The notes under the pieces are model-generated. The model was not told where the DNA came from, made no database searches, and saw nothing but the letters and a program-made list of their open reading frames with translations. From Synechococcus sp. UW140 (lineage in GTDB: Bacteria; Cyanobacteriota; Cyanobacteriia; PCC-6307; Cyanobiaceae), in contig NZ_UCOB01000023.1 in NCBI RefSeq assembly GCF_900474295.1, positions 62,001 to 126,000 on the forward strand: a stretch of 64,000 bases of DNA, read 5' to 3'. The translations under genes and the position numbers were made by a program. This document shows, one piece after another, positions 51,715 through 62,826 of this stretch (within the stretch, counting starts at the first letter, position 1; each line of letters starts with the position of its first letter).

Positions 51715-53267
51715 TCCTTGGGGCTGTGGTCGAGACCTGGCACCAGAGCCAGAGATGCCATCAGGCCGAGGGCCAGAATCATGAGCGTTGGCCATAGCGC
51801 TGCCGCCAGACGCTCATCGCTGGCGTACTGATACACCCGCACTGACAGCGTGTCGAAGTCGAAGGGGCGTAAGGACAAGGTGAGCGGTAGTTCTTTCACG
51901 GTGTCGACGAACACCAGTAAGCCACCCACAGCAAGCGGGCCGCGCAGCAGTGGTAAATGAATGCGTTGCAGCACATCAGGCCATCGACAGCCGAGGCCGG
52001 TGGCCGCCTCGTCGAGGCTGGGGGAGAGTCGTTCCAAGGCGGCGTCGAGCCCCCCTTTGGCGACGGCCAGAAAGCGATCGCTGTACCCCCAGAGCAGGAG
52101 CAGGAGTGGGGCCAGTTGCCATGGCCCGCCGAGCAGTAGCAGGGCTAAGGCCAGCACGACGCCTGGGATCGCATAGCCCATGCCAGCGAGGAAGGTGAGG
52201 CTTTGGAGCCAGCGGGATTGGCTCCAGCGTTTGGCGATTGAAAGCAGCAGGGCTGCAACGATTGCAAGCCCGGCGGCGGCAAGGGCTAGGCCGAAGCTTC
52301 GCCCCGTGAGCAGCAGCAGTTCGGGAGAGATCCCTTGTTCGAGTTGGTCAACGTTCATGCCGGCCCAGAGCAGAGGAGTCCCCAGGCTCAGCAGGGGTGG
52401 AATGGAGCCAAGCAGCTGTGCTGTGATCGCCCGGCCTCCATGCAGGGGCCAAGCCGGGGATTCGCCTCCGGCGACTCCTTCTGACCAGCGCCGACTGCGC
52501 CGACGCATCCGACGCTCTCCTCCCAGCAGCACCATCACGATGCAAAGAGTGATCAGGGCCAGACCAACAGCACCGGCAGGGTTGCCCTCCGTTTCCCAGG
52601 CCTGGAGGATTCCGGAGGAGAGGCTGGGGATGCCGAGGAGACGCACAGCGCCAAGTTCATTCACTACCTCCATGCCCATGAGGGCAATGCCGGCACCGAT
52701 TGCTGGCATTGCCATTGGCAGCGCGATCCGCCAGAAGCTGTTCCAGGGGCCGACGCCAAGGCAGCGACAGGCCTCCAGTTGGCGGCGGCCGCAGATTGTG
52801 AAACTTTCCGTGCTTAATAGAAAGACGTAGGGATAGGTGGAGAGTGCCATCACCACCACCCCCCAGCCGAGGCCATAGATGCGCACACCATGGGGGCTGC
52901 CAAGGTCCACCAGGGTGGCGGCGAGGAGGTAGGAGGGGGTGGCCAGCGGAATCAGTTGGGCGATGCGCAGGAGTCGACGTCCTGGGAAGCGGCAATTGGC
53001 GAGGAGCCAGCCATTGGCAGTGCCGACCAGGGAGCCCAGCAAGGTGGTGCCGATCAGCAGGCTGATCGTGCCGGTGATCTGCTCAACACCATCGGCGCCC
53101 AGGCTGGCGGACCCATCCCTCATCCCTTGCAGCCCTGCTCCAATCAGCCCGACCAGGGGGAGCAGCGCCAGCACTGCCAGCAGCATGGCCAGAAGGCTGA
53201 GCAGCCTGCGGTTGGGTCCCCACAGGATCCGGTTCGAGGGGCGTGGTGACCCTGCTGGCTGACTCAT
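51693..53267 (-). CDS. futB: Iron(III) ABC transporter permease (FutB/SfuB-like)
   Basis: This 524-residue double permease has about 12 membrane helices and two inner EAA-type loops: CRCLGVGPWNSFWRIALPMAMPA (about residue 168) and TGLGCRWPDVLQRIHLPLLRGPLAVG (about residue 425). This duplicated architecture typifies the ferric-iron family. The substrate-binding FutA and ATPase FutC genes are not in the window. Upstream lies a Fur-box-like sequence. The 3' end overlaps the phosphatase gene on the other strand by 22 bases. Confidence 0.87.
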   Translation of the reverse strand: MSQPAGSPRPSNRILWGPNRRLLSLLAMLLAVLALLPLVGLIGAGLQGMRDGSASLGADGVEQITGTISLLIGTTLLGSLVGTANGWLLANCRFPGRRLLRIAQLIPLATPSYLLAATLVDLGSPHGVRIYGLGWGVVVMALSTYPYVFLLSTESFTICGRRQLEACRCLGVGPWNSFWRIALPMAMPAIGAGIALMGMEVVNELGAVRLLGIPSLSSGILQAWETEGNPAGAVGLALITLCIVMVLLGGERRMRRRSRRWSEGVAGGESPAWPLHGGRAITAQLLGSIPPLLSLGTPLLWAGMNVDQLEQGISPELLLLTGRSFGLALAAAGLAIVAALLLSIAKRWSQSRWLQSLTFLAGMGYAIPGVVLALALLLLGGPWQLAPLLLLLWGYSDRFLAVAKGGLDAALERLSPSLDEAATGLGCRWPDVLQRIHLPLLRGPLAVGGLLVFVDTVKELPLTLSLRPFDFDTLSVRVYQYASDERLAAALWPTLMILALGLMASLALVPGLDHSPKDQNPVKD

Positions 53268-53399
53268 CGCCAGCGATTAGCGGTCATCAGCTCCACGGCG
53301 TTGCCATTCAGTGTCGAAGCCAGAGGTAAAGAGAGTGATGCGGTTCGTTGCCAGAAGGCACTGTTCAAACTGAACCGCATCAGCGCGTATCGGCACGAT

Positions 53400-53418
53400 G
53401 ATAATGATACGCAATAGC
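53400..53418 (-). promoter_or_regulatory. Candidate Fur box upstream of futB
   Basis: GATAATGATAC with its flank matches the first two hexamers of the Fur consensus (GATAAT repeats), about 130 bases ahead of the futB start. The third hexamer (GCAATAGC) is poor. It fits iron repression of the permease but is only a sequence match. Confidence 0.45.
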
Positions 53419-53444
53419 GCTTTGTGCTGGTCGCTGCAGGCAAC

Positions 53445-53466
53445 AAAAAACCCGCCTCTGGGCGGG
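53445..53466 (-). terminator. Intrinsic terminator after the 48-aa membrane protein gene
   Basis: On the minus strand CCCGCC and GGCGGG form a six-pair stem around a four-base loop, followed by TTTTTT. It lies 29 bases past the stop of the small gene upstream. Confidence 0.85.
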
Positions 53467-53494
53467 GGTGAGGGGCATGGTGATCGCTACTCCT

Positions 53495-53641
53495 TCAGCG
53501 CCGATTGGTTCGAATCGGAATGGGAACAAGGGAGGGTTCCATGAGGCCGCCCCCGCTGTTGTCGTCGTCGGAGTCGGCAAGCATCAGCACAGCAACGAAG
53601 ATCGCTGTGAGCGCGAGTGCTGCGGTAAGGAGTTCAACCAT
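53495..53641 (-). CDS. Small membrane protein, 48 aa
   Basis: This short frame begins MVELLTAALALTAIFVAVLM and continues LADSDDDNSGGG then LMEPSLVPIPIRTNRR. One membrane helix is followed by an acidic Asp run, a Gly linker and a basic tail. GGAG lies five bases before the ATG and an intrinsic terminator follows, both good signs of a real gene. It stands alone between cobW and futB. The family is unknown; it could be a photosystem or transport accessory. Confidence 0.72.
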   Translation of the reverse strand: MVELLTAALALTAIFVAVLMLADSDDDNSGGGLMEPSLVPIPIRTNRR

Positions 53642-53726
53642 GCCGTCTCCCGAAGTCATGTCACCTTAAACACGTTGATCAGATCCTGCTTGTCGCAATT
53701 GCGGCCCTGTCATCCAGAGGCCTGTG

Positions 53727-54842
53727 TTAAGCGAACCCTTTGCCAGCATCCTTGGCCACACAGGCCTGAAGTTGCTTGCGCAGACAGCTGTGGTCGAGAT
53801 CGCGGCCGATGATCACCAGCTGGTTCTTGCGCTCTCCAGGCCAGTCGCTGTCATCAATGGAGAAGCGTTTGCCCGCTAGGTGAAACACATGTCGACGCTC
53901 GCTTTCGTTGAACCAGAGGATCCCCTTGGCACGGAACACAGAGGAGGGAAGCTGATTGTCGAGGAAATACTGAAATTTGCGTAAGGAGAAGGGCCCATCG
54001 CTTCTGAAGGAGAGGGATGTGTATCCCTCGATCGCTAAGTGGTCGGCATGGTTATGGCCATGGTCGTGGCCATGGTCGTGGTCGTGGTGATGGTGCCCGT
54101 GTTCGCCATGGTTGTGGGGCTCATGGTCGTGCTCATGCCCGCCATGGTGATGGTGCTCATGCCCGTGCTCATGGTCGTGGTCATGCTCGGTGGGGCTGAC
54201 AACGCGATCGCTTTCAAACAGGCCCACGCTTAGGAGCAGAGGAAGCGGTACGTCGCCTTTGACTGAGCGCAGGATGCGTGCATCCTTCTTGACATCGCAA
54301 AGCTTCTGCTCGATGCCCTGGAGGCGTTGCTCGTCAACGAGGTCTGTCTTGTTCAGGAGAAGTATGTCGCCATACACCACTTGGGATCGCCCAACCTCAC
54401 TCGCCAGAAGCTGGTCGTCGAAATTCTCGGCATCAACGAGAGTAATGATCGAGTCGAGCCGGGTCTTGTCTCGTAGCTCGCTGCCAAGGAAGGTCATGGC
54501 AACCGGTAAGGGGTCCGCCAGACCAGTGGTTTCGACGACTAAATAATCGACTGGCTGAGGTCGGTCCAGGACCCTGTCCACTGCCTCGAGTAGCTCGTCG
54601 TTAATCGAACAGCAGATGCAGCCGTTGCTGAGTTCCACCATGTCGTCGCCGGCACTGACCACCAGGTCGTTGTCGATGCCGATTTCTCCGAATTCATTCA
54701 CGAGAACGGCTGTCTTCATGCCGTTTTGATTGGTGAGGATGTGATTGAGCAGAGTGGTTTTGCCTGCCCCCAGGAAGCCCGTAAGAATGGTGACCGGCAC
54801 ACCGCTGGTCTGTATCTCTGTAGTGGGAGATGAAGCGGTCAT
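53727..54842 (-). CDS. CobW/COG0523 GTPase with histidine-rich metal-binding stretch
   Basis: This 371-residue G3E GTPase has the P-loop GFLGAGKTTLLNHIL (about residue 22), the metal-relay motif GCICCSINDELL (CxCC, about residue 74) and NKTDLV. Between about residues 225 and 275 lies a His/Asp/Glu-rich run (HDHDHEHGHEHHHH and more) that could hold several zinc or nickel ions. A CobW C-terminal domain (GILWFNESERRHVFHLAGKRF) closes it. It is a metal chaperone; Zn is usual, Co or Ni possible. It lies just downstream of the pterin-dehydratase gene. Confidence 0.9.
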   Translation of the reverse strand: MTASSPTTEIQTSGVPVTILTGFLGAGKTTLLNHILTNQNGMKTAVLVNEFGEIGIDNDLVVSAGDDMVELSNGCICCSINDELLEAVDRVLDRPQPVDYLVVETTGLADPLPVAMTFLGSELRDKTRLDSIITLVDAENFDDQLLASEVGRSQVVYGDILLLNKTDLVDEQRLQGIEQKLCDVKKDARILRSVKGDVPLPLLLSVGLFESDRVVSPTEHDHDHEHGHEHHHHGGHEHDHEPHNHGEHGHHHHDHDHGHDHGHNHADHLAIEGYTSLSFRSDGPFSLRKFQYFLDNQLPSSVFRAKGILWFNESERRHVFHLAGKRFSIDDSDWPGERKNQLVIIGRDLDHSCLRKQLQACVAKDAGKGFA

Positions 54843-54902
54843 TGGCTGTTGCAGGTGAAGAGGGCGCTCATCGGCCGCCAGAGTTGCTCATGCTGGCAGG
54901 GA

Positions 54903-55187
54903 TTAGCTCAGCGCGTCGATCGCCCGCGCCAGGTCGAGGTCGAGATTGGACAGTCCGCCCAGATCATGGGTGCTCAGTTGGATCGTGACACGGGAATAAA
55001 CGTTGCTCCAGTTGGGATGGTGGTTCATGGCTTCTGCCAGCAGGGCGACCTGGCTCATGAATCCCCAGGCGCTCACGAAATCGGCAAACGTCCAGTGGCG
55101 TTCAAGCCTCCCCTCCACCAGTTGCCATTGAGGCAGGGTCTGGGGAAGTGCCTGGATCTCCGCTTGATTGAGCAGGGTTGTTGCCAT
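54903..55187 (-). CDS. Pterin-4a-carbinolamine dehydratase
   Basis: This 94-residue protein shows the PCD/DCoH pattern: W-rich FADFVSAWGFMSQVALLAEAMNHHPNWSNVYSRVTIQLSTHDLGGL, with the HHPNW active-site histidines (about residue 56) and the later STHDLGGLS. It dehydrates the 4a-hydroxy-pterin. In cyanobacteria without phenylalanine hydroxylase the role is uncertain; pterins could serve the circadian or light response. It precedes cobW by 60 bases, same strand. Confidence 0.9.
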   Translation of the reverse strand: MATTLLNQAEIQALPQTLPQWQLVEGRLERHWTFADFVSAWGFMSQVALLAEAMNHHPNWSNVYSRVTIQLSTHDLGGLSNLDLDLARAIDALS

Positions 55188-55259
55188 GGTTCTGACTGGT
55201 CTGCGCTCAGCCTGGGTTGAACAAGCTGCCTAACGTGTGGAGATCAATGTCTTGATGGT

Positions 55260-55538
55260 GTGAAGCTCCAACACTGGACGCTGGTGAAGGGAGTAATCGG
55301 TGCCACAGCCGTTGGTGGCGCCCTCGTCCAATCGGTTTGCGCGCCTGCAGCTTGGGGCCAGCGCGTGGTCCCCAAGCTCCGGGAGATCTGTCCAATGGGC
55401 TACGTGGATACTGCTAAAGGAACGTGCAGCACTCTTGGGCTGATGACCCATACAGTGCAGCCGTCAAAGGGTGAGACTTGTCCTTCGGGATGGGCCAATG
55501 CAGGTGGTGGCTATTGCCGCAAGAGCGATGGAAGCTAG
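55260..55538 (+). CDS. Small exported Cys-rich protein, 92 aa
   Basis: GTG start; a hydrophobic N-terminus (LVKGVIGATAVGGALVQSVC) and then two related Cys motifs, REICPMGYVDTAKGTCSTLG and GETCPSGWANAGGGYCRKS. These look like a duplicated C-P-x-G-[YW]-x(7-8)-C unit. An exported, disulfide-bonded protein is likely. The family is not recognised. It is divergent from the pterin dehydratase. Confidence 0.7.
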   Translation: MKLQHWTLVKGVIGATAVGGALVQSVCAPAAWGQRVVPKLREICPMGYVDTAKGTCSTLGLMTHTVQPSKGETCPSGWANAGGGYCRKSDGS

Positions 55539-55695
55539 TTCAAGTCGTCCTGATTGCTTGATTCCCTCTTCGATTGGCCTTTCTGGATCATTCTTCTATA
55601 GGTTTAATTGCTTTCGCAGGTAGTGGCTCTACCTCTGTAATCCGTGGAAAGAGCTTGGGTCACTGTCCTAGTCTGCAGAAAGTTGTTTTGAGTGA

Positions 55696-56046
55696 ATGAC
55701 TGTTGCTCCTGTCAAGAAGCCTGGCGTCGTTCTCTGGGCAAAGGTGTATATGGGTGGGTTGTCTTTGATGTATCTCGTTTTGATTCTTTTGTCGCCCTTG
55801 ATGTTTCTGTCGGGCGAAGAAGAGGCTGTCGTTACTGGTTTGGTCTTTCTCGTTTTAGGTATACCTTGCCTTGTTATCTCGTTTGTTCCACTCTTCCTTC
55901 CTCCGAAGCCATGGGTTTGGGTGTGGATTCTTGTTCTGATTGCCATAGGTATGACCAGTGTGTGTTGCCTGCCGGTCACGATCCCGCTTCTGATCTTCTG
56001 GATCAAGCCTGATGTCAGGCGCTATTACGGCAACGTTGTTGCCTAA
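55696..56046 (+). CDS. Hypothetical three-helix membrane protein, 116 aa
   Basis: MTVAPVKKPGVVLWAKVYMG precedes three hydrophobic segments (about 22-42, 46-66, 72-97; the last with WVWVWILVLIAIGMTSVCC) and a short basic tail (IKPDVRRYYGNVVA). Positive-inside residues place the tail in the cytoplasm. I do not know the family. Codon use is AT-leaning with several TTG and GTT codons, unlike core genes. Confidence 0.65.
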   Translation: MTVAPVKKPGVVLWAKVYMGGLSLMYLVLILLSPLMFLSGEEEAVVTGLVFLVLGIPCLVISFVPLFLPPKPWVWVWILVLIAIGMTSVCCLPVTIPLLIFWIKPDVRRYYGNVVA

Positions 56047-56468
56047 GCTGTGAGCTTTCTGTTGTTGTTTTCTGAATGGTTTTGTGGCTCTGCCTGTTAT
56101 GAGCCGGTCTCGAAGGGTTGCGGCTGAAGGGATGCGGTTGGTTGTGTTGAGGCGATCGTCGTTGGGGAGTGTTGTCCAGTCGGCATGCAACCTTATGTTC
56201 GGAGCTTTCTTGTAGGGCTTTTGTTCTCAATCTTCCTGCTGGGTTGAGATCAGTTGTGCTCGTTTTTGTTGGGCGCATCGTGGGCATTCCGTATCTGCTT
56301 GAAGGGAGAGTCTTTGTCAAGCAGCTTCTTTGTCTCAAAAGCTTGTTTCTTTTTGCCCGGGTGTATTGGTTCTCAAAAAGTGAGTGTTGGTGTGAGTGTC
56401 AGAGGTGAGGCGTCATGCATTGCTGTTCCAAGCTTTTGCTGAGTCAGCTGATGTTGCAGGCCAAGGTG
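56047..56468. other. Intergenic region without a supported gene
   Basis: These 422 bases contain a weak 38-residue plus-strand frame (56099-56215, MSRSRRVAAEGMRLVVLRRS) with no ribosome site, and other frames with poor composition. No terminator with a clear T-tract was found. Nothing else evident. Confidence 0.4.
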
Positions 56469-57380
56469 TTAGATCCCGAAGAGCCTGGCCTGTTCGACGG
56501 CTGCCCTGAACACGATTGCGTGCCGTTCTACGAGCGGGGTGATCGCGTCGTAGCCGCCGCCGATCACGGTGGCGATCGGAATGCTTCTGCGTAAACAGGC
56601 GTCAATGACTAGGCGGTCGCGATTCAGCAATCCCTGGTCGGTGAGGCCAAGCCGTCCAAGCTTGTCGTCGCGATGTGGGTCTACACCAGCGTTGTAGAAA
56701 ACGAGGTCTGGCTTGAGGTGATCTAGTAGATCTGGTAATCGATCACCAATGGCCGCCATGTAGCCGTCATCATCGGCTTGATCCTCAAGGGGGATATCTA
56801 AGTCGCTGTTGACCTTGCGCAGAGGAAAGTTGCTGGCGGCATGCACCGACAGGGTGAACACCTTTGGCTCCTGGGCGAAGATGGCGGCGGTGCCATCCCC
56901 TTGGTGGACGTCCAGATCGATCACCAGCACCTGCTGCACAAAGGCCTGCTGAAGCAGCACTGAGGCGGCGACGGCACAGTCATTGAAGATGCAGAACCCG
57001 CTGCCGAAGCTGGGATGCGCATGGTGGGTGCCACCGGCAAGATGGCAGGCCAAGCCTGCATTGAGTGCCAGACGGGCTGTGAGCAGGGTGCCTCCTACTG
57101 CCAGCCAGGTGCGCTGCACCAGTGGGCGGGTGGATGGCAGGCCAATGCGGCGTTGCTGTTCACGGGTGAGGTTGCCCCGGCAAAAGGATTGGTGGTAATG
57201 CCGATCGTGCACGAGCTCGAGATCACGCCTGCTGATGCTTAGTGGCCGGTGAATCTGTTGTTCTTGAATCAGAGAGCTGTTCAGCAGATGGTGATAGAGC
57301 AGCTTGAATTTGGCCATCGGGAAGCGATGGCTGCTCGGAAGGGGGGCTGAATAAAGAGGGTGGTAGACAAGCGGCAGCAC
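56469..57380 (-). CDS. Histone deacetylase / AcuC family amidohydrolase
   Basis: This 303-residue zinc enzyme begins [20 protein letters not shown]. The family signatures are [20 protein letters not shown] (tandem His, about residue 115), [18 protein letters not shown] (metal Asp and His, about residue 150) and the late [21 protein letters not shown] (Asp). Bacterial members deacetylate small amines, acetoin-related acyl-CoA synthetase, or polyamines; the substrate here is unknown. It is followed downstream by intergenic DNA. Confidence 0.9.
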
Positions 57381-57431
57381 AGCCGGTTCAAATCAGGCCA
57401 CCGCCGCAGTCTGATGGATTTGAACAGCGGT

Positions 57432-57671
57432 TCAAGCTGCTCTGGAGATCAGCCTTTGGGTGCTCAGTTGGTGATGAGCGAGATTGCTGGCATAGAGGCG
57501 TCCGGCCGCATGGGCCTCTCTTAACGACTGGAAGTTGCCAACAAAGTCATAGTCGGCGCCGTTCAAGGTGGCGGCTACTGCAAACAGCCGTCGAGACACC
57601 TTTGTGACGGTCCAGCTCAGGTGGCAGGCCGGCGCATTGATTGGGTCGTTCACGAGACACCCTCCGGTCAT
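57432..57671 (-). CDS. Conserved hypothetical protein, ~79 aa
   Basis: The protein from MTGGCLVNDPINAPACHLSW continues into VTKVSRRLFAVAATLNGADY. It is a small beta-alpha-type protein with two cysteines near the N-terminus and a helical end (EAHAAGRLYASNLAHHQLST). The family is unknown. It precedes the HDAC-family gene by 51 bases on the opposite side of that gene's start, same strand, so it may be co-transcribed upstream of it. Confidence 0.6.
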   Translation of the reverse strand: MTGGCLVNDPINAPACHLSWTVTKVSRRLFAVAATLNGADYDFVGNFQSLREAHAAGRLYASNLAHHQLSTQRLISRAA

Positions 57672-58062
57672 GTTTTCAGAGTCTGACAATTCCGGGATCA
57701 GGCGGGATCATTCTTAGTCGTTCTTCATCGCCCTGGTGGGTGAGCGCAGGTTGCTCAGGCTGGCTGGGGATCTTCGTCAGCTTCACGGCTTTGCTCAGCC
57801 TGGACTCAGCTCAAGCAATCTGGCGACTTGCCGTAATTTCGGTCTGTGTTCCTTGAATGGGCCTCGAAGCCTCCATGCTTGCGTCTGATCGCTGGTGAAG
57901 AAGTGCTGACAAGCTGCGGATGGCAAGGTGGCTGGTCGTGAGGCGAATGTCAGTCCTGAGGGCAGGCTCGGACTCAGTCACATCTGAATGGATTTTCGAT
58001 GTGTTTCAGTCACGCTTCGGATCCCAGTGACAGCAGTGTTGGGGCGTTGCATTTCTCTCCCC
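57672..58062. other. Intergenic region without a supported gene
   Basis: About 391 bases. One weak plus-strand frame with a GTG start at 57740 (38 residues, containing CSGWLGIFVSFTALLSLD) resembles a small membrane protein but has no ribosome site. Otherwise nothing is evident. It must contain the promoter of the glycine-zipper gene. Confidence 0.4.
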
Positions 58063-58377
58063 ATGAAACGCGCGCTTGCCATCACCGGCCTGGCGTTGTT
58101 CACCATCTGCACCTTCAGTGTGCCTCCGTTGCTTGCCGATCACCACGGCGATTCAGTGTTCCTCGACGATTTCGATGACGCTGATGATGAGAGGGATCGT
58201 TCCACCACCACGGTGAGTGATCCAGACACCAACAGCTGTGTCGAGGGCAGCGTGATCGGTGGCTTGCTTGGGGCCGGCCTTGGTGCAGCACTGTCGCGAG
58301 GCAATGGTCGCTGGATCGGTGTGCCTTTGGGCGGCGCTGCCGGTGCTCTGGTGGGTTGTCAGGTGGATGGCGGCTGA
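58063..58377 (+). CDS. Exported glycine-zipper protein, ~104 aa
   Basis: A signal peptide (MKRALAITGLALFTICTFSV, cleavage about LLA-DHH) is followed by an acidic stretch (VFLDDFDDADDERDR) and a Gly-rich two-segment zipper (VIGGLLGAGLGAALSRGNGR, WIGVPLGGAAGALVGCQV), the pattern of glycine-zipper 2TM / Rick-17kDa-type proteins. It is probably membrane-associated in the periplasm. The ATG fits the signal peptide; the longer frame does not. Confidence 0.75.
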   Translation: MKRALAITGLALFTICTFSVPPLLADHHGDSVFLDDFDDADDERDRSTTTVSDPDTNSCVEGSVIGGLLGAGLGAALSRGNGRWIGVPLGGAAGALVGCQVDGG

Positions 58378-58417
58378 GCGAATCGCAACGCTTCGCTCAG
58401 TGGGCCTTGTTGTCTGC

Positions 58418-58708
58418 TCAGCGGTTGAGCACAGCACGTTCCTGGCGGTCAGTGAGATAACAGCGACCTGCAGTCGCCCCGGAGGCCAGCATTAGTTTCG
58501 GGTTGGGTTGCATGGGGATGGCCTGAAACGGCACGGCTGCATCCAGGCTCACCTCCTCGGTTCCCACCACCAGCGCTTTGTTCCCACTGCTGCCCTCCAC
58601 CGCACAGGCGAACCATCCTCCGGCCTGGCTTTGTGGCGAGGTGAGAAGCGTGCCCACGCTGAGGGCAATGGTGATGGCAAGGCTGTTGCAAGGACGGGGA
58701 AATGCCAT
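58418..58708 (-). CDS. Hypothetical exported protein, ~96 aa
   Basis: A signal peptide (MAFPRPCNSLAITIALSVGT, cleavage about SQA-GGW) precedes a small mature domain WFACAVEGSSGNKALVVGTE, ending with CYLTDRQERAVLNR. Two cysteines are available for one disulfide. The family is unknown. The ATG gives the best signal peptide; a longer frame upstream is unsupported. Confidence 0.7.
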   Translation of the reverse strand: MAFPRPCNSLAITIALSVGTLLTSPQSQAGGWFACAVEGSSGNKALVVGTEEVSLDAAVPFQAIPMQPNPKLMLASGATAGRCYLTDRQERAVLNR

Positions 58709-58838
58709 AACGGTGGTTGAGCCTCGGGTCTGTTGCCAGCCACCCTCAGGCCGTTGTCGCATCAATGGCTTGATCCAGATCACTTGGGAATGTGATTTGG
58801 TTCTCTCACTGCTTCAGGCTCATCTGTCTGGTCGAGGG

Positions 58839-59003
58839 CTATCTGCAGTCGTTGATGTCCCAGCGATCGCCCCAGGCCTGTTTTACATGGACTGTTGCTC
58901 CGTCCAGTTGTGCTTTCGCTGTGAATGGGCTCACGATGATTGCTGCAGCCAGCAGCGTGATCGCGGCAGGCATCGCCAGACGGATCCAATCTTCTTTCAG
59001 CAT
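58839..59003 (-). CDS. Small exported or membrane-anchored protein, 54 aa
   Basis: A short protein starts MLKEDWIRLAMPAAITLLAA with one hydrophobic segment (about 9-30) and ends VKQAWGDRWDINDCR. The terminal sequence (QAWGDRWDINDC) has a conserved look, and I recall similar short tails in cyanobacterial hypothetical proteins, with modest certainty. It is divergent from the Nif11-like gene, 98 bases apart. Confidence 0.6.
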   Translation of the reverse strand: MLKEDWIRLAMPAAITLLAAAIIVSPFTAKAQLDGATVHVKQAWGDRWDINDCR

Positions 59004-59101
59004 GGTGGTCTTGTGCGTTGACGTCTTCGACGATGGCCTGATCTGGCTTTGATGTGTTCCCTTGGCTGCAATCTGTTTCTTTGCCGCAGCTTTCTGACGC
59101 C

Positions 59102-59332
59102 ATGCCGATGGCGACAAAGCTTGAGCTCTATCAGCAGTTTGTTTCCAATCCAGAAGCAGGCATCAACAGCATCATTGCTCTAGCCGCCAAGGAAGGGCTG
59201 GAGCTCAATCAAGCTGAGGTCTCGGAACTGATTAAAACCATTGACGTCGATGAAGAGTTTGATGACGTTGAACTGGATGCCATCGCTCTGGTCGCCATTG
59301 CTGGTGGGAAAGGGAGGAATAGTCACTGCTAA
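59102..59332 (+). CDS. Nif11-like leader peptide / candidate RiPP precursor
   Basis: This 76-residue acidic helical protein begins MPMATKLELYQQFVSNPEAG and contains the Nif11-type pattern LELYQQFVSNPEAGINSIIA followed by EVSELIKTIDVDEEF. It ends VAIAGGKGRNSHC. The Gly-Gly after an Ala-rich hydrophobic stretch is the typical leader-cleavage site, leaving a seven-residue tail KGRNSHC with Ser and Cys. That is far shorter than the usual core of marine prochlorosins. No modifying LanM-type gene is in the window, so it may rely on distant enzymes or act as a non-RiPP Nif11 protein. Confidence 0.72.
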   Translation: MPMATKLELYQQFVSNPEAGINSIIALAAKEGLELNQAEVSELIKTIDVDEEFDDVELDAIALVAIAGGKGRNSHC

Positions 59333-59363
59333 ACGATGATTAGGCCTGGGATTCGTTCAGAGA

Positions 59364-59828
59364 CTAACGATACCTACTCAAATAAGACTCCAGAATGCCA
59401 ACAAGCTCTTTAGGCTTTTTCCCATAGCACTCACTCAAAGAGTGCCTGTTTTCATCGGTTTTGATCCAGAAGCTCACCAACTCCGTCTTGCTACTGGAAT
59501 ATCCTGATCGATGTTGAACAGTTGTAATTTCAAAATAAAGCAAATCACTCCAGAGATAATGGAACTTTCTAAATAGCACTTTCTCGCGTATTCCATCCGG
59601 CCCAAGTTTCAACCAGTTACTATTTGGCCACAGCTTCCATACGGATAGCGGAATTCCGAGGCCACCTCCTGCCAGCAGAATCAATCTCACCAGCATCATT
59701 TCTGGTTTGTTTTCGATTAACAAGATGCCCGAGATAAAAAGGGCGATACATACCAGCAATATCAAGATCCACTTGATCCTGCTGGGATAAAGCGTCATCG
59801 ACTCTGGCAGTGATTCCGGTTGCTTCAC
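59364..59828 (-). CDS. Two-helix membrane protein with PH-like soluble domain
   Basis: This 154-residue protein has an N-terminal soluble stretch and two membrane helices (about 20-38 and 44-62, with ILILLVCIALFISGILLIEN). A beta-type domain (GPDGIREKVLFRKFHYLWSD, LLYFEITTVQHRSGYSS) resembles the STM3941/PH-like fold. AT-rich codons (TTT, AAA, ATA) contrast with core genes. Function unknown. It is convergent with the Nif11-like gene, 31 bases between. Confidence 0.6.
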   Translation of the reverse strand: MKQPESLPESMTLYPSRIKWILILLVCIALFISGILLIENKPEMMLVRLILLAGGGLGIPLSVWKLWPNSNWLKLGPDGIREKVLFRKFHYLWSDLLYFEITTVQHRSGYSSSKTELVSFWIKTDENRHSLSECYGKKPKELVGILESYLSRYR

Positions 59829-59912
59829 GAAAGGTTGACTTATTGGCTTTTCATCATGCTAGGTGAGGCCCTGTGAAGCGCAAAGGAACAAACATAAACA
59901 ATAAATATAATA

Positions 59913-60101
59913 ATGAAAACAAAACAGATTAACCTTAAACAGTTCAACTACCTTTGTGGTCAAGCTGCTGTTCGTGGATCGTTTTACGATAGATACAACG
60001 CAGCTCAAAGCATGTCCAAAACATGTCCAAAACATGCACTCAGAGCCCTCAGAAGGCTCTGCAAGATGCCTCCGACTCGCCTTAGTTGCTACGTAACATA
60101 G
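59913..60101 (+). CDS. Doubtful small ORF, 62 aa, with tandem repeat
   Basis: An ATG frame begins MKTKQINLKQFNYLCGQAAV and ends RRLCKMPPTRLSCYVT. Four cysteines and many Lys/Arg residues, but no ribosome site and no family. An 11-base repeat lies inside. It may be a true lineage-specific small protein or chance; I place it low. Confidence 0.3.
   Translation: MKTKQINLKQFNYLCGQAAVRGSFYDRYNAAQSMSKTCPKHALRALRRLCKMPPTRLSCYVT
60011..60032. repeat. Two tandem copies of an 11-base unit
   Basis: CATGTCCAAAA occurs twice in direct succession, followed by a further CATG. Repeat units of 11 (not a multiple of 3) inside a frame argue against stable coding. Confidence 0.7.
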
Positions 60102-60605
60102 GCCTCATTGGAGGCCCCTTGTAAACCCTTAAGCTTATAAAAGATAATGGAACTTCGTGCAGCTCAAGTTGATGTGATCTTGAATCTACGTCTGACCGGA
60201 ACCACTTTCAAGACAAACAGTACTGCTATTGGTCCGTAAAAGGAACTTCTAAGTCGGAAAATCTAAGGCAAAAGGAACACCATTTTGGTTACAAACTTCC
60301 TTCCGTATGGGTCGTTTGCTTCAGTAACCTCACTTTCTATTTTCTTGCTCCCATTATTGGCTTTTTGTTCTCATCATTACCACCAGCAACTCGCTTTAGC
60401 TCATCTATTGAGAGTTCATGATCAGAGCTCATTTCAGACATGGGAATCAAGACTCTACTCTGTTTCTAGCTGTGGCTTGTCTTTTAGTCCATCGTCTACA
60501 AATTTGTCAGGTTCCGCAAAAGTTTTCAGCAACATCTCCCCCATTTGGGGGATGTGGAAGGTGGAGGTCTGCAGCGATGTTGAAAGGAGTTCAGGAGATG
60601 GCGAA
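60102..60605. other. Spacer with weak ORFs
   Basis: About 500 bases with a plus-strand frame opening at 60285 and a minus-strand frame (60455-60640, 61 codons) that overlap and cannot both be read. A GGCCTC/GAGGCC hairpin occurs near 60105-60120 without a T-tract. No strong gene evidence, although the last part leads into the 27-residue ORF. Confidence 0.4.
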
Positions 60606-60689
60606 ATGCCCCTTCTCACGTTCGCCGCAGTTATTGCCATCGGGACCCCTGCCTATTTGAAGTTCTGCCAGTGGGTCGGCCAGCTCTGA
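60606..60689 (+). CDS. Candidate 27-aa membrane peptide
   Basis: A short frame begins MPLLTFAAVIAIGTPAYLKF and ends CQWVGQL. It has one hydrophobic helix of about 16 residues. AGGAG lies eight bases upstream of the ATG, an ideal spacing. Such size and shape are usual for photosystem, b6f or NDH accessory subunits, but I cannot match it to a known one. The frame extends upstream in a longer ORF of poorer composition. Real coding is possible, not proven. Confidence 0.4.
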   Translation: MPLLTFAAVIAIGTPAYLKFCQWVGQL

Positions 60690-60931
60690 GTCCGTTTGGA
60701 CCGGGAGAGGCCGAAACACCAGTGCAACGGAGAGGGTGGGAGGCCAAACTTCGGTCCGACGATCAAAATGGCTCTGAACAACAGCGCTAGTACCTGGAGC
60801 TCGCGGCACTGCCGATCACGACGCGGATGTTCTCTGGTGGTGAGCCTGTGAATTTGGGTCTCATTGGTTCTGTGTTCTGAGTTGGTGGTCCACCTGGAAG
60901 CTGGTTAGGGTCTTTTTAGATCGGAGAGCCA

Positions 60932-62464
60932 ATGGGTGCCGGGAAAACGGCTTGGGAACGCCTCGCGGAGCACCTACGCGAAACCCAGATCATTGACTCC
61001 ATAAACAGGACGCTCTATTGGGATCAGAACACCCGGATGCCCGCTGGAGGCGCCCCCTGGCGAGGCGAGCAACTGACGCTGCTGGCCCGTCAGTTGCATC
61101 AGCGCCAGAGTTCGGCTGATTACGCCGCGCTTGTCGCTGAAGCTCGTGCTGATTGGCAGCATGCCCGCCGCCTTGAGCAGCTCTCAGAGCTTGAGGAACA
61201 GGAGCGGGGCAGGAATCTGGAGCTGCTGGAGCAGGATCTGCGCCGTCAGCAGCGGCAGGATCCAGAGTTGGTGGCAGCCCTCGCTACCGCAAAGGCTGAA
61301 GGGTATGACTGCTGGCAGCAAGCACGTGCCAGCAATGATTTTCCTTTGTTCGCACCGGCACTTCGCTGTCTGATTGGTTTGCGTCAGGAGCAGTCTCGTC
61401 AGTTGGATGAGCCTCGAGGCTGCTGGGAGACCCTGGCTCAACCGTTCGAACCTGATCTGCGCCTCGATCGCCTGCTTGAGCTCTTCGCTCCCTTGCGCCA
61501 GCGCTTGCCGGAACTGCTCGATCAGGTGCAGGCAGCACCATCGACTCGTGGTGTCGATTGGGATCTCAGTGCAGACCAGCAGCACCGTTTGTGTGATCAG
61601 CTCTTGAAGGAATGGGGCCGTGATCCAGCGATCACCTGTGTGGCTACTTCACCTCACCCGTTCTCGATCACGCTCGGTCCGCGTGACTTCCGTCTCACCA
61701 CAAGGGTGGTCACCGGTCAACCCCTCTCCTGTTTCCTGGCGACCGCTCATGAGTGGGGGCATTCCCTTTATGAGCAGGGATTGCCTCCTGCCAGTCATCA
61801 ATGGTTCGCCTGGCCGTTGGGGCAGGCCACATCCATGGCGGTGCATGAAAGTCAGTCCCTGTTTTGGGAGAACAGAGTGGCGCGCAGTGAAGCGTTTGCG
61901 CAGCGTTGGTGGCAGCGTTTTGCTGCCGAGGGGTCGCCTCTTGATTCCGCCACGATGTTGTGGCGGGCCATGAATCCGATTGTTCCGGGTCCGAATCGAG
62001 TGGAGTCGGATGAGCTCAGCTATGGGCTTCACATCATGATCCGTACAGACCTTGAGTTGGCGTTGCTGGAGCAGGGGTTGCCTGTGGAGGACCTCCCGCG
62101 GGAATGGAACCGTCGCTATGGCGAGCTGCTTGGCGTCACCCCTGCCGACGATGCCCAGGGTTGCCTTCAGGACGTTCACTGGAGTGAGGGCCTTTTCGGC
62201 TATTTCCCTTCCTATCTTTTGGGGCACTTGGTCAGTGCTCAGCTCAGTGAGGCGATGACGGCAGACATCGGTCCTCCTGAGCAGCACGTGGCCAGCGGTG
62301 ATGTCAGACCTCTGCTCGCCTGGTTGAGAGACAAGGTGCATTCCGTGGGGCGGGCTCTGAATGCAGAGGATCTCGTGGCGGAGGTGAGTGGTCATCCCTT
62401 GTCCAGCCAGCCCTTCCTCACCTATCTCGAAGCGAAGCTGATCCAATTGCGCGCCGCTGGCTGA
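60932..62464 (+). CDS. Carboxypeptidase Taq, M32 family
   Basis: This 510-residue zinc metallocarboxypeptidase has TAHEWGHSLYEQGLP (HExxH, about residue 272) and AVHESQSLFWEN (Glu ligand region, about residue 302). The middle motif ITLGPRDFRLTTRV (about residue 247) and the closing YFPSYLLGHLVSAQL, which fits the M32 substrate loop, are also present. The N-terminus WERLAEHLRETQIIDSINRT has the helical clamp. It removes C-terminal residues with broad specificity in the cytosol. The upstream frame begins at ATG 60932 with no strong ribosome site. Confidence 0.95.
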   Translation: MGAGKTAWERLAEHLRETQIIDSINRTLYWDQNTRMPAGGAPWRGEQLTLLARQLHQRQSSADYAALVAEARADWQHARRLEQLSELEEQERGRNLELLEQDLRRQQRQDPELVAALATAKAEGYDCWQQARASNDFPLFAPALRCLIGLRQEQSRQLDEPRGCWETLAQPFEPDLRLDRLLELFAPLRQRLPELLDQVQAAPSTRGVDWDLSADQQHRLCDQLLKEWGRDPAITCVATSPHPFSITLGPRDFRLTTRVVTGQPLSCFLATAHEWGHSLYEQGLPPASHQWFAWPLGQATSMAVHESQSLFWENRVARSEAFAQRWWQRFAAEGSPLDSATMLWRAMNPIVPGPNRVESDELSYGLHIMIRTDLELALLEQGLPVEDLPREWNRRYGELLGVTPADDAQGCLQDVHWSEGLFGYFPSYLLGHLVSAQLSEAMTADIGPPEQHVASGDVRPLLAWLRDKVHSVGRALNAEDLVAEVSGHPLSSQPFLTYLEAKLIQLRAAG

Positions 62465-62520
62465 TTGAGGCCGGCATCTCAGGCTGTGCTTGCGGTGGCT
62501 CGACAGGCTGCTTGAAACCC

Positions 62521-62826
62521 ATGCGAAGGTGGATCACAGCGCAGCCCGACTGGCTTCCGATCGCCTGGATCAAGCTGATGGAACCAATTCAACAAGGTTT
62601 GGAACAGTCGTTTGAGAGTGAGCGCTTGTCGCGATGGATTCGTGAATGTCAGGACATCGACGAGTTGCGCGAGGCGGCGCTTGCCTTGCTGAAACAGCTT
62701 GATCAACAGAAATCGGCTCGTGCATGGTTGGCTGCTCGAGCCTCAGAGTCTGAGAATGCGAAACTCAACATCCTGGCTGAGTTGATCAAGAAAAGCGATT
62801 TATCGGATGAGTCGCCAGAAACGTAG
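62521..62826 (+). CDS. Small helical hypothetical protein, ~101 aa
   Basis: From MRRWITAQPDWLPIAWIKLM the protein is helical and charged (GLEQSFESERLSRWIRECQD, AALALLKQLDQQKSARAW) and ends in acidic residues. No signal peptide. A longer TTG-started version adds three residues. It follows the carboxypeptidase by 56 bases on the same strand and may be co-transcribed. Family unknown. Confidence 0.6.
   Translation: MRRWITAQPDWLPIAWIKLMEPIQQGLEQSFESERLSRWIRECQDIDELREAALALLKQLDQQKSARAWLAARASESENAKLNILAELIKKSDLSDESPET

Follow-up and report, generated by a model that had tools for sequence, protein, structure and literature searches.

A probable stray, 5'-truncated copy of a Nif11-like double-glycine peptide gene in a Synechococcus genome

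Results and discussion

The short open reading frame (ORF) at 59102–59332 of the 64,000-nucleotide stretch analysed here (the window) is best explained as a recent, 5'-truncated stray copy of a type-C gene from a Nif11-like double-glycine peptide family, presumably exported by an NHLM system and possibly acylated by a GNAT enzyme; we give this reading a probability of about 0.72. The observations behind it are direct ones: the genome holds further copies, the window copy is truncated and lies within an insertion, leaders and cores vary to different degrees, and exporter and GNAT genes adjoin one pair of A- and C-type family genes. In the proposed mechanism, the conserved helical leader would present the precursor to enzymes that tailor it and to the NHLM exporter's C39 peptidase. 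Cleavage by this peptidase behind Gly-Gly would then set free a short, hypervariable core. Fuller members would be expressed, cleaved and exported in this manner. More speculatively, and by analogy with the selidamides, the GNAT may acylate a lysine or another amine, and Cupin_8 hydroxylation may also take place. The window copy would serve at most as a sequence donor for recombination. A more far-reaching version is rather doubtful, namely a lanthionine-free combinatorial RiPP library of A-, B- and C-type precursors with fast-evolving cores of 6–12 residues that in this genus mostly end in Cys, a GNAT (plus Cupin_8 in relatives), NHLM export, recombinase-linked scattering, tails cut off by stop codons, and the window copy as relic or donor.

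The window copy and its truncation

The original prediction described an ORF at 59102–59332 with an AIAGG site followed by the seven residues KGRNSHC, and all of these elements, including the placement of the Ser and the Cys, are present in the sequence. The relevant features are as follows.

59102–59332, plus strand: the predicted ORF, 76 aa, from ATG to TAA; its start Met is internal in full-length relatives
59054–59332, plus strand: alternative GTG-start reading of 92 aa, whose first 11 residues derive from the flank and not from the family
59303–59308, plus strand: Gly-Gly codons, putative C39 cleavage site
59309–59329, plus strand: putative core KGRNSHC, identical to the core of the G000:C2 copy
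59086–59352, plus strand: duplicated stretch, 96.6% identical to G000:C24:355–621, ending 20 nt past the stop
59095–60939, no strand assigned: stretch absent from the relative G011, a mosaic of fragments with differing best matches
59364–59828, minus strand: 154-aa ORF, no Pfam match at E 0.01
60534–60701, no strand assigned: 168-nt repeat, matched at 84.5% identity by DNA that lies some 0.35 kb downstream from the G000:C23 family copy

The window's own genome (G000) comprises 2.70 Mb in 35 contigs and has a listed completeness of 99.98%. In the family alignment, full-length relatives start 13 residues ahead of the Met at 59102. The duplicated stretch starts within the gene, past the MDKLERFK codons. 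Homology to the G000 copies on contigs C24, C10, C2 and C23, as well as to one copy in genome G005, begins at 59086 in every case. Fuller copies have eight more codons at the start, a ribosome-binding site (GGGAGG) and a partner gene, A, upstream of them, all of which are missing from the window copy. Also missing there is TTGTTCGGGAGGAACGCCTG, which lies upstream of all five other listed B- or C-type starts of the genome; GGGAGG is seen at the same five starts. The C2 copy combines the core seen in the window with a leader that carries a 26-codon internal deletion; the same deletion is found in the C23 copy, which no longer has a core.

No promoter-like site was found in 58800–59600, where 0.5 would be expected by chance. 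Judged from its sequence, which is devoid of the start region and the ribosome-binding site, the window copy is most likely silent or weakly expressed. Its leader differs from that of the C24 copy at only 2 of 207 nt, too few for decay to be judged, so that expression from another start is possible. The earlier proposal of an unusually minimal precursor stands as regards leader, Gly-Gly site and short core, and had not foreseen the 5' truncation and the mosaic insertion. The ORF is real, but it is probably a remnant rather than a minimal lanthipeptide standing on its own. The result is sobering in that a truncated stray copy can display a striking short core.

Modifying enzymes had been reported as lacking from the vicinity, and this is borne out by ten larger ORFs between 53.7 and 62.8 kb and by the 154-aa neighbour, none of which has such a match; the ten ORFs match CobW, pterin dehydratase, histone-deacetylase-like, Gly-zipper or M32 peptidase families, or nothing.

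A mosaic insertion

G011 is collinear with the window over 52522–59094 (92.9% identity) and 60940–62613 (96.6%), and between these flanks it has 131 nt as compared with 1845 nt in G000. No family match was found in G011. The insert consists of the gene fragment, a piece resembling G011 contig C27, a piece 87% like a further stretch of G011, and the repeat from the C23 neighbourhood. The C27-like DNA (59352–59862, 94% identity) adjoins an integrase-like remnant in G011 (phmmer E 2.6e-9, without a Pfam match). A tyrosine recombinase gene stands upstream of the A gene at G000 C2, a close relative is similarly placed at C14, and integrases are found on two member-holding contigs of genome G223.

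Several minor observations concern the same elements. The repeat at 60534–60701 is also weakly and partly like locus L052. The tyrosine recombinase genes (PF00589) at L051 7066–8340 (plus strand) and L052 8660–9973 (minus strand) share 80% DNA identity, and G011 holds a remnant-like match to them at L174 6410–6727. Carriage by phages or plasmids was also considered and rejected, as no relative was found among the viral contigs, phages or plasmids searched.

Leader types and family distribution

The protein encoded by the window ORF (P0001) has 12 matches scattered over G000, and matches at E 0.01 or better occur in 13 of 197 genomes, G000 included. A scan of genome contigs with P0001 returned one relative, in Synechococcus sp. 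AG-686-F08, which makes a relative of marine Synechococcus the most likely host. PHROGs returned one family of unknown function (E 0.0083). Three leader types can be distinguished: A (MPTLE, MATLEEF and the like), B (MTTL) and C (MDKLERF or MNKLERF). The genes occur in runs, with A-B-C in G005, A-B at G000 C14 and C29, and A-C at G000 C24, C2 and C23. The A and C genes at C24 overlap in the sequence TGATG, where the stop codon of the first meets the start codon of the second, and GGGAGG precedes this overlap. Three contigs (C24, C10 and C30) have copies at their ends, and copy numbers are therefore approximate.

A chance ORF would be in keeping with the missing promoter-like site. The family recurs in several genomes, however, and the presence of the same leader there refutes this explanation, leaving it practically no probability. 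Leader changes are, in addition, mostly synonymous between copies within G000 (types A and C) and within G004, though not within G025.

Conserved leaders and hypervariable short cores

Family members share a conserved leader, in contrast to the hypervariable stretch that follows Gly-Gly. Between the C10 and window copies, 7 of 207 leader nt differ (5 synonymous codons, 1 non-synonymous) as against 10 of 21 core nt, where all six changed codons are non-synonymous (Fisher test of leader versus core, 5.7e-8). The C24 and window copies differ at 2/207 leader and 3/21 core nt (p 0.006), both changed core codons being non-synonymous, and the C24 and C10 copies at 8/246 and 9/21 nt (3.0e-7). Among 31 within-type pairs, the 11 of equal core length were tested and the other 20 differ in core length; all 11 gave p below 0.01, and these pairs share ancestry and are not independent. 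The leader count of the G000 B-type pair is not meaningful, as the comparison spans an indel. Synonymous core changes, 4 of 5 changed codons in one G004 pair and 2 of 4 in one G000 pair, argue against purely diversifying change.

Altogether 21 short cores were typed. This set omits the tail-bearing genes described below (of which G000 has five, G025 three and G284 one), fragments and the degenerate genes of G021, as well as the C-type gene at C23, all of G223, and two distant Gly-Gly proteins from G025. Core lengths of 6–12 residues are common in the family within the genus, and the window sequence is precursor-like, as had been suggested. The C-terminal residue is Cys in 19 of the 21 cores, Ser or Thr is present in 15, and Lys in just 7, the last count being one that speaks against the preferred reading. 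In G223, which belongs to another genus, a Cys ends no more than 3 of 11 cores; the terminal Cys thus characterises this genus but does not extend to the whole family.

A conserved tail beyond the core

In some precursors of G000 and G025, the sequence continues past the core Cys with EEAHDEPWGRCPGMRPMRKWLF, which in G284 ends a precursor with a different leader. Thirteen other tails were compared with that of the C24 copy over 19 codons and differ from it at 2–10 synonymous and 0–1 non-synonymous codons; among them are some from G004 and G021 that now follow a stop codon or have fallen out of frame. The search pattern consisted of the first seven codons, which favours conserved copies, and tails outside the pattern (the copies in L053, L060, L066 and L175, and one in L064) are not part of this count. 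The tail is present in 6 of 400 family genomes. Given a conserved tail beyond the Cys, the short cores look like stop-cut forms, apparently ended by a stop codon just after the Cys that precedes the tail.

TGC TGA ends 16 of the 21 short-core genes. In a B-type gene of G004 (L058 7283–7356, minus strand), these two codons are immediately followed by the tail, still in frame, an arrangement in which read-through and recent truncation look alike. Selenocysteine was rejected as a general explanation, since matches to tRNA-Sec reach the Rfam cut-off in 0 of 6 genomes; the best score 46.5 bits against a cut-off of 47 (G004 and G021) and are read by ARAGORN as tRNA-Ser (tga).

Relation of the leader to Nif11

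The leader had been assigned to the Nif11 type. For the window protein this label is not supported by profile searches, with no PF07862 match at E 1 and a TIGR03798 score of 12.1 bits against a cut-off of 32.3; the predicted helices and a remote kinship fare better. Among 25 members searched at E 1, TIGR03798 matches nine (best E 0.0076) and PF07862 five (best E 0.045), and unrelated families equal or surpass these figures (DUF1456, 16/25, best E 0.0016). Profile–profile comparison with hhalign gave probabilities of 63.9% (E 6.6e-5) against a Nif11 profile and 70.5% (E 3.9e-5) against a prochlorosin-like profile. The match to Nif11 domains of G000 and to prochlorosin-like proteins covers the segment reading SIIALAAKEGLELNQAEV, and remote Nif11 kinship is plausible. 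With a profile termed A1, 263 of 400 family genomes gave matches, which need not be Nif11 proteins and of which many are weak and run over columns 16–64. At other places, G000 has 14 PF07862 matches, 13 of them over the cut-off. The features that characterise Nif11 precursors, i.e. Gly-Gly, a hypervariable core and many paralogues, are all found in the family. The 25-member consensus reads ELDAVALAAIAGG and does not contain the D/EELExxxGG motif given for prochlorosins in PMC10783134, in whose main text AIAGG has 0 occurrences.

AlphaFold, run on the window protein and three L048 proteins, predicted helices at residues 3–15, 17–30, 37–48 and 58–67, with pLDDT below 50 at 50–55 and 68–76 and a mean of 65.5; with only four sequences in the run, this lends weak support to a leader with a disordered end. 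A helical Nif11-like protein with some other role, its C-terminus varying by chance, would account for C-type relatives in G025 and G284 that end without Gly-Gly and core, and for the fact that no Nif11 precursor HMM is clearly passed. We nevertheless consider a non-precursor unlikely: variation is concentrated beyond Gly-Gly, exporter and tailoring-type genes adjoin one pair, and pLDDT is low at 68–76 in the four sequences modelled.

Export genes and the question of core chemistry

A Gly-Gly peptidase exporter, sought elsewhere in the genome as had been proposed, is present in G000. On contig C24, the A-C pair is followed by genes for a GNAT, a C39 peptidase ABC exporter, an HlyD protein, a second ABC protein and a cyclic-nucleotide-type protein, and two further C39 matches occur in the genome. 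Within this NHLM set, the C39 ABC protein (TIGR03796, 974 bits), the HlyD protein (TIGR03794) and the cyclic-nucleotide-type protein (TIGR03896) score over their cut-offs. Two details count against the preferred reading: the second ABC protein falls below its cut-off (TIGR03797, 621.5 versus 709.4), and the C-type gene adjoining the exporter encodes GR in place of GG. The setting of an NHLM-exported peptide is seen for the C24 pair only, no such genes being found beside the window copy, and the same division holds for a GNAT in the cluster, as in selidamides.

The search for a LanM elsewhere in the genome, and with it the suggestion of a single thioether ring between Ser and Cys, led to a different result. 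No LanM dehydratase (PF13575) or LanC-like protein (PF05147) was matched in G000, nor were YcaO or SPASM proteins; among the genomes searched, YcaO occurs in 2 of 6 and SPASM in 1 of 8. A minimal lanthipeptide, in which a LanM acting in trans would ring the Ser and Cys of KGRNSHC, draws on the spacing of these two residues, on a Ser or Thr placed 2–6 positions ahead of the terminal Cys in 13 of the 21 short cores, and on the presence of LanM in some member-holding relatives (PF13575 in 7 of 16 genomes searched). This spacing is, however, limited to those 13 cores, 6 of the 21 have no Ser or Thr at all, and with the enzyme missing from a 99.98%-complete genome the explanation is much weakened and now very improbable.

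A doubtful but possible account is that of an unmodified double-glycine peptide, such as a class II microcin or a signal, which would undergo C39 cleavage and export only and perhaps form disulfides between the terminal Cys residues of A, B and C. The Gly-Gly site together with the NHLM exporter, in a genome that lacks LanM, YcaO and SPASM matches, fits this account, as do the Cys-ended short cores (19/21) and the proximity of A, B and C genes. Against it stand the GNAT and Cupin_8 genes, which are interspersed with members in G223 and are their neighbours in G025 and G284, and the low share of Cys-ended cores in G223 (3/11). As to chemistry, unmodified export and acylation by the GNAT are both compatible with the data, and a thioether is not favoured.

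GNAT and Cupin_8 genes near family members

The GNAT invoked in the preferred reading is a 330-aa protein at C24 that matches PF00583 and has the P-loop-like motif RHQGIA in its N-terminal half. This motif was not seen in 2 of 8 aligned GNATs (G284 and G360). The PF00583 matches sit in the N-terminal half, and 2 of 8 C-terminal halves match weakly (best E 0.059); a half-to-half comparison aligned only the overlapping ends of the cut pieces and thus says nothing on a tandem fold such as that of NpuN. A PDB sequence search with the GNAT gave a best E of 0.26. GNAT relatives occur in 14 of 400 family genomes, including 4 of the 6 that hold the tail (Fisher 1.4e-5, or 2.6e-4 without G000), a co-occurrence measured on related genomes with two draws of 400 taken as one set.

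GNAT neighbourhoods were examined in 7 of these 14 genomes (G000, G004, G025, G223, G248, G284 and G360). In G223, one intact precursor, two precursors with a stop inside the match, a GNAT and a Cupin_8 protein are encoded within 4.4 kb, the stops in 2 of 3 precursors counting against the preferred reading. In both G025 and G284, a GNAT, a Cupin_8 protein and a tail-bearing precursor lie within 10 kb; G004 has a core-and-tail remnant 1.7 kb from the GNAT, and G360 more distant family relatives within 10 kb of it. For G248 and the G223 GNAT contig C33, no family precursor was found in the stretch examined. The member-holding genomes G005 (58% complete), G006, G021 and G059 gave no GNAT match, a further point against the preferred reading.

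Cupin_8 genes beside members are located at L066 5640–6893, L115 6143–7429 and L108 2850–4097. Their alignment reads H-N-D in G025 and H-C-A in G284 and G223 at the putative first metal site. Two fatty acid desaturase genes (PF00487; L066 4519–5568 and 7566–8552) accompany the GNATs, Cupin_8 and tail-bearing precursor of G025, and relatives of these desaturases were found in none of the other loci scanned.

Comparison with known precursor systems

Three known systems are close to the family. Nif11-derived peptides (N11P; TIGR03798, within PF07862) (Haft et al. 2010, PMC2887384) likewise consist of a leader, a Gly-Gly site and, behind it, a hypervariable end; they too have many paralogues and, in some strains, adjoin a TIGR03794/03796/03797 exporter. 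The present family differs in its absent or weak HMM matches, its short cores, its motif ahead of the cleavage site (ELDAxALxAIAGG) and the lack of LanM and YcaO in G000. Selidamide-type clusters, whose products carry a fatty acyl group on the side chain of Lys or Orn, are similar in that a GNAT adjoins a Gly-Gly precursor and a C39 exporter, here at the C24 pair. GNATs are described as acylating Nif11 or NHLP precursors, with a lanthionine synthetase not always in the cluster (nostolysamide, PMC13060382), and the Cupin_8 oxygenase-type gene of related clusters recalls phaeornamide, which has a GNAT and an Fe/2-oxoglutarate hydroxylase (PMC9505594). In contrast to these systems, LanM is absent here, and acylation is speculative.

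In picocyanobacteria, precursor libraries are known from the prochlorosins, in which one LanM makes many rings. If the preferred reading is true, a smaller library with a GNAT and without lanthionine, azole or SPASM machinery would show the library strategy under another chemistry. Window copy aside, the precursor family itself is worth studying and offers a small, testable system for core diversification and gene scattering. A literature search found no description of it, which does not prove that none exists. Like the prochlorosins and SyncA of marine Synechococcus (Arias-Orozco et al. 2023, PMC10783134), the family forms a library whose precursors occur both dispersed and in tandem, with a leader that is conserved and a core that varies, and has recombination genes nearby. 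Unlike them, it lacks the EELExxxGG motif, its genome G000 has no LanM, and its listed cores of 6–12 residues do not generally permit a Ser/Thr-Cys ring.

Prochlorosin-like genes share islands with family genes in G004 and G025. At L059 and L064, islands mix family genes with prochlorosin-like precursors beginning MSEEQLKAF, and a tRNA-Arg lies beside the mixed island of L059.
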